Positions 29,311 to 31,850 of a DNA stretch of 64,000 nt are shown piece by piece (the first letter of the stretch is position 1; each line of letters opens with the position of its first letter). The position numbers and the translations under genes were made by a program. Below the pieces are notes generated by a model. It was not told the DNA's origin. It did not search any database and saw nothing but the letters and a program-made list of their open reading frames with translations. The stretch is from a bacterium (GTDB lineage Bacteria; Armatimonadota; Fimbriimonadia; Fimbriimonadales; Fimbriimonadaceae): positions 496,001 through 560,000 of the forward strand of contig PNMZ01000001.1 of assembly GCA_013823945.1 (NCBI GenBank), given 5' to 3'.

Positions 29311-29349
29311 ATGAGCCTCCTCGAATTTGTCGAGGAGGCTCATGTTTTT
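29311..29349. terminator. hairpin terminator between convergent genes
   Basis: A 14-bp perfect stem (29311-29324 with 29330-29343), loop ATTTG, is followed by GTTTTT. It separates the polysaccharide export gene from the OsmC gene. The perfect stem would work for the plus strand; the minus strand lacks a comparable T run. Confidence 0.8.
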
Positions 29350-29759
29350 CAAACTATCTCAAAAATCGAGTCGACCTGAGGCGCGGCTCGCAAAGTGGCA
29401 ATCACCGCACAGTACTTTTCATCACTGAGCTGAACTGACCGTGCAACCGCCGCTTCATCTAAGTTCTCACCGGAAACGACATGCTTGATCATTATCGACA
29501 AAAACGGTCGGGGCCATTCACCTTCCGGAGCCCGCTCTCCGCTCACTTCAATCCGGTAGCTCGTCACCGTTTGCTGTTTCTTGCGCAATATGGAAATCAC
29601 ATCCATCGCTGAGCATGCCGCCGCTGCCGAAAGCAACGCTTCCACCGGTGATACTCCGGAATCTTCTCCGCCATGCTCCGGTTGAGCGTCCATCCGCAAA
29701 ATCTGGCCGTTCTCTCCCTTCGACTCAAACGCCATTCCGCCTTTCCATTCAACTGTCAT
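29349..29759 (-). CDS. OsmC family protein
   Basis: 136 aa from the ATG at 29759, preceded by GAGAGAAAG; a longer frame to 29798 is not needed. It has the family core with the resolving pair: the peroxidatic-like Cys in AAAACSAMDVIS and the second Cys in DEKYCAVIATL, along with GVSPVEALLSA. Members detoxify organic hydroperoxides or are related general-stress proteins. The adjacent gene on the other strand is tRNA-Sec. The protein itself uses cysteine codons, so it is not a selenoprotein. Confidence 0.92.
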   Translation of the reverse strand: MTVEWKGGMAFESKGENGQILRMDAQPEHGGEDSGVSPVEALLSAAAACSAMDVISILRKKQQTVTSYRIEVSGERAPEGEWPRPFLSIMIKHVVSGENLDEAAVARSVQLSDEKYCAVIATLRAAPQVDSIFEIV

Positions 29760-29822
29760 AACTTTCTCTCTATTCAGCAGAAAGCATAACGCACGCAAAA
29801 GGATTCCCCAGTCCCAATCGGC

Positions 29823-29828
29823 TAAACT
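29823..29828 (+). promoter_or_regulatory. -10 box of the tRNA-Sec/corA unit
   Basis: TAAACT, the same hexamer seen before several leaderless genes in the window, ends 12 bases before the mature tRNA. Confidence 0.4.
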
Positions 29829-29840
29829 ACAAGCTCCTTC

Positions 29841-29935
29841 GGGAGCGGATGGTTGCTGGTGTGGCCCCCGGTCTTCAAAACCGTGAGCGGCGCCTTAGGG
29901 CGCTGGGTGGGTTCGATTCCCACACGTTCCCGCCA
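29841..29935 (+). tRNA. selC: selenocysteine tRNA, anticodon TCA
   Basis: 95 bases including the encoded CCA (29933-29935). The anticodon loop CTTCAAA (29873-29879) carries TCA at 29875-29877. The long six-base-pair D stem (GGTTGC with GTGGCC, loop TGGT), a large variable arm (GCGCC paired with GGCGC) and an acceptor beginning GGGAGCG paired to CGTTCCC are all features of bacterial tRNA-Sec. The eighth acceptor pair appears mismatched. It decodes in-frame UGA with SelB, implying selA, selB, selD and selenoprotein genes elsewhere. The corA ATG follows only four bases after the CCA. Confidence 0.9.
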
Positions 29936-29939
29936 AAGT

Positions 29940-30911
29940 ATGAGCATGGCCGAAACAACTCAATTCCTCGGCGCAACATTTGACCCACGAACCGGCATGT
30001 CGGCATATGTGCCTCGTGAGCCACCTCCAACAGACGGGCTCACCTGGATAGTTCTATCCGATCCTGCGGAACTTTCAAATCCAATATTTGAACCAGTCTT
30101 AAATCGATTCCCCCTCACACTTGCTGATTTCATCGAAAAGTACAATCGGATCGGCATCGAATCGAGACCAGAAGGTTTAGCCCTCTTGACCACTCTCCCT
30201 CACTGCAATGATGGAGTCGAATACCACCCGATCGCTATCTTCGCCATCCCAAATTGCATCATCACAGTTTCCAATTCAGAACTCTCCGAGATTAAAAGTC
30301 TGTTTAACCAATGGAAGCAAGACCCTATCTCAATTGGAGCGACGTCTGGCAGACTTCTCCACGGAATCCTAGACCTCACCTTGGATACCTTCTTTCCTGC
30401 TGTTGACTACATTAACGACGAACTGGATTCAATTGAAGAGCAAATTTTCAGTCGATCTTCGACTGATCTTTCACGACTCATTGGCATCAAACGAGAACTC
30501 CTATTCCTCCGCAAGAACATCTCGCCTATTCGTGAAAACATTAACTCCCTGATTCGAAATGGACAACCTGTTGTTAGCCCCTCCGAACTGCCCGAATTCC
30601 AAGACATCTATAATCACAGCCTTCGCCTTTCAGAAAATGTGGATCTCAGTCGCGATCTTGTAACCGGCTTGATGGATGTTCAACTCAGCGTTACAAGCAA
30701 CCACCTCAATGAAATCATGCGAACTCTCACCGTGATCAGTACGATCCTGATGGCCGCTGCCTTGATCGCTGGTATTTACGGCATGAACTTTCAATACATT
30801 CCAGAACTCAAATGGCTCTATGGATATCCGTTCGCCATCGGCTTAATGACGTTCCTCGGAATCGGAATCTATTTCACCTTTCGCAAACTCAAGTTTATCG
30901 GCAAAAAGTAG
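29940..30911 (+). CDS. corA: CorA-family divalent cation transporter
   Basis: 323 aa from ATG 29940; a second ATG at 29946 is possible. Long helices with a charged central region precede two C-terminal membrane segments. The first ends with the selectivity motif YGMN (IAGIYGMNFQYIPELKW) and the second is followed by a lysine-rich tail (FRKLKFIGKK). CorA pentamers take up magnesium, cobalt or nickel. The start codon is four bases after the tRNA-Sec CCA end, with no room for a Shine-Dalgarno of its own. Confidence 0.93.
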   Translation: MSMAETTQFLGATFDPRTGMSAYVPREPPPTDGLTWIVLSDPAELSNPIFEPVLNRFPLTLADFIEKYNRIGIESRPEGLALLTTLPHCNDGVEYHPIAIFAIPNCIITVSNSELSEIKSLFNQWKQDPISIGATSGRLLHGILDLTLDTFFPAVDYINDELDSIEEQIFSRSSTDLSRLIGIKRELLFLRKNISPIRENINSLIRNGQPVVSPSELPEFQDIYNHSLRLSENVDLSRDLVTGLMDVQLSVTSNHLNEIMRTLTVISTILMAAALIAGIYGMNFQYIPELKWLYGYPFAIGLMTFLGIGIYFTFRKLKFIGKK

Positions 30912-30914
30912 TCC

Positions 30915-31838
30915 TTACTCCTTCTCCCAGTCCATCTGGAACCGACCAAACTCATCCTCTGGCTCCACATGAACCATCACTTTCCGCACAAACGGCATAC
31001 GCTCTGTCACCGCATCATGAACCCGATGCGCCAAGTCATGTCCCTCTCTCACACTCAAACCCCCATCAACCAAGATATCTAAATCCACAAAATAGTCAAG
31101 CCCTAATTTTCGCACCCAGCACCGGTGAGTCCCTTTCACGCCGGAGATCGAATAGGCCACCTCCCGAATCTCTTTCACCAAAGCCACGTCCGGAGCCGCA
31201 TCAGTCAATTCCGCCAACGCCGGGCGCATTAAATGCCACGCATTGAACGCCAATACCCCCGCCGCCAGCATAGCCGCCCAGTCGTCCGCCGCCTCCCAGC
31301 CCCGGCCCCCAATCAATGCAACGGAAATCCCAACAAACGCCGCCGCCGAAGTGATCGCATCGCTTCGGTGGTGCCATGCATCCGCCTCGACCGCCAAACT
31401 GCGCGACTCCTGACCCCGCCGCAAGGCAAATCGGAACAACCCTTCCTTGACCACCACAACTCCAACCAGAACCGCCAAAGTGAATGGAGCCGGAGCCAAA
31501 TGGGGCGTCACAATTTCTCGCACACTCGAAATCACAATTGCCACTGCCGCGCCCAGTAATGCAATCGCAACTACAAGTGCCGCCATCGGTTCGGCCCGTC
31601 CTCGTCCATAAGGGTGCTTCTCACTCGGTGCCTCTGCCGCTACCTTAAGACCCGCAAAAACAATGAGCGAACTCAGTACGTCGGAGCCAGACTCAACTGC
31701 ATCGGCCACGAGGGCTTGTGAATGCCCAAAAATTCCGGCAAGCCCCTTCACCAGAGCCAAAACACCGTTCGTCACAACCCCCACCAAAACCGATTGCCGC
31801 GCTAACCGAATTGCCTCCCCGCGCGACACTCCACCCAT
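30915..31838 (-). CDS. cation diffusion facilitator family transporter
   Basis: 307 aa from ATG 31838. A TTG at 31844 would add two residues but lies on the -10 box. Six membrane segments carry the metal-site residues: DAVESGSD in helix 2 and DAWHHRSDA in helix 5, as in zinc/iron CDF proteins. The cytoplasmic C-terminal domain has the VHVEPED end. These proteins export Zn, Co, Fe or related cations by proton antiport. It follows the DinB-like gene on the same strand and converges with corA, three bases apart. Confidence 0.94.
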   Translation of the reverse strand: MGGVSRGEAIRLARQSVLVGVVTNGVLALVKGLAGIFGHSQALVADAVESGSDVLSSLIVFAGLKVAAEAPSEKHPYGRGRAEPMAALVVAIALLGAAVAIVISSVREIVTPHLAPAPFTLAVLVGVVVVKEGLFRFALRRGQESRSLAVEADAWHHRSDAITSAAAFVGISVALIGGRGWEAADDWAAMLAAGVLAFNAWHLMRPALAELTDAAPDVALVKEIREVAYSISGVKGTHRCWVRKLGLDYFVDLDILVDGGLSVREGHDLAHRVHDAVTERMPFVRKVMVHVEPEDEFGRFQMDWEKE

Positions 31839-31850
31839 GCCCAAATCTTA
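31836..31850 (-). promoter_or_regulatory. leaderless-type -10 box formed by the upstream stop codon
   Basis: On the minus strand TAAGAT (31850-31845) ends six bases before the ATG at 31838-31836. Its first three bases are the TAA stop of the DinB-like gene. Confidence 0.5.

Follow-up and report, generated by a model that had tools for sequence, protein, structure and literature searches.

The locus lies in the genome of a member of the Fimbriimonadaceae (Armatimonadota). A gene for the selenocysteine tRNA (tRNA-Sec) is followed on the same strand by corA, and the pair is flanked by an osmC-like gene and a cation diffusion facilitator (CDF) gene on the opposite strand. Coordinates refer to the window, the whole stretch of 64,000 nucleotides that was analysed.

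29349-29798, minus strand: osmC-like gene (PF02566), divergent neighbour, probable start ATG 29759
29823-29828, plus strand: -10 element TAAACT (context GGCTAAACT), tRNA-Sec promoter, predicted transcription start about 29835
29841-29935, plus strand: tRNA-Sec gene, UCA anticodon, encoded CCA at 29933-29935 (ARAGORN and Rfam RF01852)
29936-29939, plus strand: spacer AAGT, 4 bases, read from the sequence and the same in the sister genome G006
29940-30911, plus strand: corA, CorA-family divalent cation transporter, 323 aa (PF01544, YGMNF motif, congener alignment)
30915-31844, minus strand: CDF gene, convergent with corA (PF01545/PF16916), a neighbour kept in the genus

The tRNA gene is called by ARAGORN as tRNA-SeC on the plus strand (29841-29935, anticodon tca), and the full RF01852 model matches 29841-29931 at 73.2 bits, where the gathering score is 47. 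With a score over the cut-off and a UCA anticodon, the gene belongs to selC. The genome also encodes SelB (TIGR00475, 350 bits) and SelA (TIGR00474, 433 bits), both above cut-off. The corA product scores 190.5 bits against PF01544 (cut-off 27) and carries the GMN motif as YGMNF at residues 280-284. Its score with the CorA Mg/Co equivalog TIGR00383 of NCBIfam, 191.5 bits, is below the cut-off of 200.75, so the product is labelled a CorA-family protein with a putative substrate.

The two genes meet at CGTTCCCGCCA-AAGT-ATGAGCATGGCC, with the CCA of the tRNA ending at 29935 and the corA ATG at 29940. The sequence, ARAGORN and Rfam agree on these positions, which are exactly those of the preliminary description. 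The four-base spacer (29936-29939) contains neither a terminator nor a Shine-Dalgarno sequence. Six bases further on, at 29946, lies another in-frame ATG; it lines up with the start of the congeners' corA, and its use would lengthen the leader from 4 to 10 nt. None of the corA starts at 29940, 29946 and 29997 has a TANNNT at short-leader spacing or a Shine-Dalgarno sequence. Folding of the RNA from 29835 to 29990 (z 0.20) did not keep the cloverleaf and was uninformative on access to the start codon.

The first base of TAAACT lies 18 nt upstream of tRNA-Sec, and of the 44 other tRNA genes of the genome that were examined, 37 carry a TANNNT 14-23 nt upstream. The aligned upstream regions of these other genes give the promoter consensus GGTANNNT, with no visible -35 element and with the first T generally 15-22 nt ahead of the tRNA. 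In a matrix built from the 37 other tRNA promoters, TAAACT is the top promoter match over 29700-30010, and its full-length score of 7.1 is reached by 0.03% of window positions. No other TANNNT occurs on the plus strand through the tRNA and the beginning of corA (29829-30100). From the probable osmC ATG to the tRNA, 3 positions differ from the sister, compared with 63 of the 323 third positions in corA. A single promoter-like TAAACT ahead of both genes had been proposed for this locus, and in sequence and position the element does resemble the promoters of the other tRNA genes.

Promoter statistics from 464 kb of this genome and its tRNA loci point to a widespread short-leader style. Before the ATG candidates of 356 ORFs in the 464 kb, TANNNT is seen 80 times at offsets of 12-18 nt, against about 28 expected from offsets 19-59, and the enrichment peaks exactly 12 nt before the ATG. 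This peak is a signature indicating leaderless or very short-leader mRNAs, probably widespread in this Armatimonadota lineage, and it bears out the leaderless style ascribed earlier to the genome. A weaker Shine-Dalgarno-like excess is also seen among its ORF starts.

The order osmC, tRNA-Sec, corA, CDF is common to this genome (G000) and to G006, G004 and G003; on a short contig of G007 the tRNA-Sec, corA, CDF part is present. The nearest named relative, Armatimonadetes bacterium Uphvl-Ar1 (CP021423.1), appears to be G006 and has a corA that is 96% identical, while G003 appears to be ACE_ARM8 (CP075366.1), also of the Fimbriimonadaceae. Uphvl-Ar1 came from a Microcystis enrichment. From the CCA to the corA start the gap is 4 nt in G000 and G006, 40 in G004, 32 in G003 (where the start is GTG) and 47 in G007. 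The G003 gap has TATCGT and TAAATT just ahead of the GTG and the G007 gap has TAATTT, all candidate promoter elements for corA; no TANNNT was found in the 40-nt gap of G004. No corA relative was found in the genomes of G005 and G001, and in G005 the tRNA-Sec lies about 8 bp from the end of the CDF gene. G002 has no corA at the locus and just one 34% relative elsewhere in the genome.

Among relatives the exact four-base join is found only in the nearest sister; three congeners have a wider gap and three have no corA at the locus. Five members of the genus have the adjacency and two the four-base gap, which makes the adjacency a trait of the genus, subject to losses or variation, and confines the tight join to two sister species. 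The junction is the same in G000 and G006/Uphvl-Ar1 despite the 63 of 323 third-position differences in corA. Conservation of the spacer was dropped as evidence, as a four-base match between two genomes this closely related carries no weight. Most likely the ancestor that this species shares with Uphvl-Ar1 lost a spacer of 30-45 bp, a recent event that fused two transcription units. Such a deletion would be the simplest account of the four-base join, the direction of the change being the one we infer.

In none of the other genera examined does corA stand beside tRNA-Sec. Among the other loci examined there, none has corA within 1.5 kb of tRNA-Sec, and tRNA-Sec is nearby in 3 of 51 corA loci of GTDB genomes, all three from this genus. 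A pattern search of 201 relatives for a tRNA 3' end followed by an ATG within 12 nt returned only this genome, its sister and G005, which has no corA there. The osmC/tRNA-Sec order is kept in several other genera, and at other loci aldehyde-dehydrogenase-like genes lie downstream of tRNA-Sec with their own -10 element at 12-13 nt. Nothing relevant was found in the literature on linkage of tRNA-Sec and corA.

Other kinds of genes also follow tRNA-Sec in these genomes. In G051, from another family of the order, a 137-aa RuvX-like ORF (L035; PF03652, 27.3 bits, just below cut-off) begins 12 nt after the tRNA with neither a TANNNT nor a Shine-Dalgarno sequence, and is possibly an independent join of tRNA-Sec to an mRNA. 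ORFs of 374 aa lie 63 nt downstream of tRNA-Sec in G020 (L017) and G016 (L023); the first is a tyrosine integrase (PF00589) and the second is similar at its start, suggesting that tRNA-Sec may serve as an integration site in the Fimbriimonadaceae. In G038 (L014), the gene 33 nt downstream encodes a MOT1-type molybdate transporter (PF16983, 182.5 bits).

In this genome, tRNA-Sec and corA lie on the same strand with no promoter or terminator between them, as in a tRNA-mRNA operon. There is no ribosome site between the genes either, and a single transcription unit is the simplest reading. This two-gene unit would be transcribed from the tRNA-Sec promoter (TAAACT, 29823). RNase P would make the 5' end of the tRNA, and an RNase E/G-type endonuclease, or a different one such as RNase J, would cut just past the CCA, with exonucleases trimming the tRNA. 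This would free a corA mRNA whose leader measures about 0-4 nt (at most 10 nt with ATG 29946 as the start), and its translation would follow the leaderless or short-leader mode that is common among the genes of this genome. We infer co-transcription, the cleavage site and translation from the processed end. A two-gene unit, with a short-leader corA mRNA arising from tRNA 3' processing at a junction formed by spacer loss, appears to be the best explanation of the locus, with a probability of roughly two in three.

The genome encodes an RNase E/G homologue (495 bits), and L139, another of its proteins, resembles RNase J in sequence. For a canonical RNase Z, a possible tRNA 3'-end cutter, nothing in the genome scored over the family cut-off. 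The best hit, L137, has 56.9 bits to RNase Z versus 254.9 bits to NF038231 and is nearer other metallo-hydrolases. CCA is encoded in all tRNAs examined in this genome. Bacterial tRNAs with an encoded CCA are usually cut a few nucleotides downstream and then trimmed (PMC3848588, PMC4681348). Cuts a few nucleotides past the encoded CCA are known from E. coli (PMC4681348) and Propionibacterium acnes (PMC3848588), and cuts within the CCA are also documented in Actinobacteria (PMC4681348, PMC3848588). Given the usual downstream cut and trimming, the new corA 5' end may lie at any position within AAGT or shortly beyond it. It counts against the model that a cut exactly at 29935/29936 is not assured, and the corA message would be lost if the RNA were cut inside the AUG or trimmed 3'-5' from a point far downstream. 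Of the proposal that tRNA processing leaves corA with a leader of about four bases, the general form is plausible, as corA has neither a promoter nor a Shine-Dalgarno sequence and the genome is of the short-leader type; a 5' end at exactly 29936 is the part that is not assured.

In a rival reading, corA has a weak promoter of its own inside tRNA-Sec, for example with the T-arm sequence GGGTTCGATT serving as an extended -10 element (GGGTNNNNT). The leader would then be about 15 nt and the adjacency incidental. The best hexamer within the tRNA is TTCGAT at 29912, 28 nt before the ATG, and its scores of 3.3 with the full matrix and 4.6 with the core are in the top 0.2-0.3% of the window. It lacks, however, the A at hexamer position 2 that has a frequency of 0.96 in the tRNA promoter matrix, the same T-arm sequence occurs in tRNA-Sec genes without a close downstream gene, and the 15-nt leader would have no Shine-Dalgarno sequence, all of which makes an internal promoter unlikely. 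The start of corA itself could be misplaced, with the true start at an in-frame GTG or TTG within the tRNA gene or far downstream at ATG 29997. The corA frame is open back across the tRNA in G000, G006, G004 and G003, but in G007 the open frame reaches back no further than +27 from the tRNA end, the N-termini of the congeners' CorA match residue 3 when the protein is counted from 29940, and no promoter precedes ATG 29997; a misplaced start is therefore very hard to credit.

It is also conceivable that the unprocessed tRNA-Sec-corA RNA is itself the corA message, with internal initiation at 29940 or 29946. Each transcript would then yield either a tRNA or CorA, setting tRNA maturation against transporter synthesis. 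Four bases give an endonuclease little space, and through the join the tRNA and its neighbouring start codon sit on the same RNA. Internal initiation would nevertheless be poor at an ATG that comes 4 nt behind a folded tRNA and has no Shine-Dalgarno sequence. As RNase E/G is encoded in the genome and corA is retained in congeners without such geometry, an unprocessed message seems quite improbable.

The preliminary description had further suggested that the arrangement ties metal transport to the supply of tRNA-Sec, and this part finds no support in the comparative data. The four-base gap is present only in two sisters, and a regulatory tie is not indicated because congeners separate tRNA-Sec and corA, or lack the pair, yet keep the selenocysteine machinery: all eight congeners encode SelA and SelB, whatever the corA arrangement. 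A link of this kind would, if true, matter more than the arrangement itself. In the two sister species corA output may simply follow a constitutive tRNA promoter, with no dedicated regulation.

One tight same-strand gap of 4 nt among about 45 tRNAs is not remarkable by itself; the unusual point is a corA that, as far as the sequence can be read, has neither a promoter nor a Shine-Dalgarno sequence. The tRNA-Sec gene is the only one of the approximately 45 tRNA genes in the genome with a convincing gene within 10 nt downstream. Same-strand ORFs at somewhat greater distance follow tRNA-Ser-GCT (L088, contig C10; 20 nt to a secreted-protein-like ORF that has an AGGAG site) and tRNA-Thr-GGT (L072, contig C1; after about 27 nt, with the frame open through the tRNA).

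Co-transcription of tRNAs and mRNAs is already known, and tRNA-Sec-corA probably joins the class of tRNA-mRNA operons. In enteric bacteria the tufB operon (thrU-tyrU-glyT-thrT-tufB) combines tRNA genes with a gene for a protein (PMC6134099). The tRNA and protein gene described here would likewise form one unit, as predicted from the sequence. In the tufB operon a translation factor follows four tRNA genes, whereas here a transporter with no role in translation lies 4 nt after a lone tRNA-Sec and lacks a Shine-Dalgarno sequence. The leaderless mRNAs of Actinobacteria arise mostly from transcription that starts at or near the start codon (PMC3848588, PMC4681348, PMC4633059). The predicted corA mRNA resembles them in its short or absent leader and missing Shine-Dalgarno sequence, and differs in that its 5' end would come from RNA cleavage.

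In animal mitochondria, tRNAs abut reading frames, and excision of the tRNA leaves a message nearly without a leader. This tRNA punctuation is a genome-wide rule in those organelles. The tRNA-Sec also abuts the corA frame, with 4 nt from CCA to ATG; here the arrangement is no general rule, being found at 1 of about 45 tRNAs, and the processing is a prediction. We tentatively suggest, at somewhat less than even odds, that this is a bacterial case of tRNA punctuation, in which 3' maturation of tRNA-Sec creates the short-leader corA mRNA and one cleavage gives one tRNA and one message. If so, genomes that tolerate leaderless messages could delete the promoter and ribosome site of a gene and still express it, and the RuvX-like case in G051 would make the joining of tRNA-Sec to an mRNA recurrent. 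The locus would then offer a simple bacterial parallel to mitochondrial tRNA punctuation.
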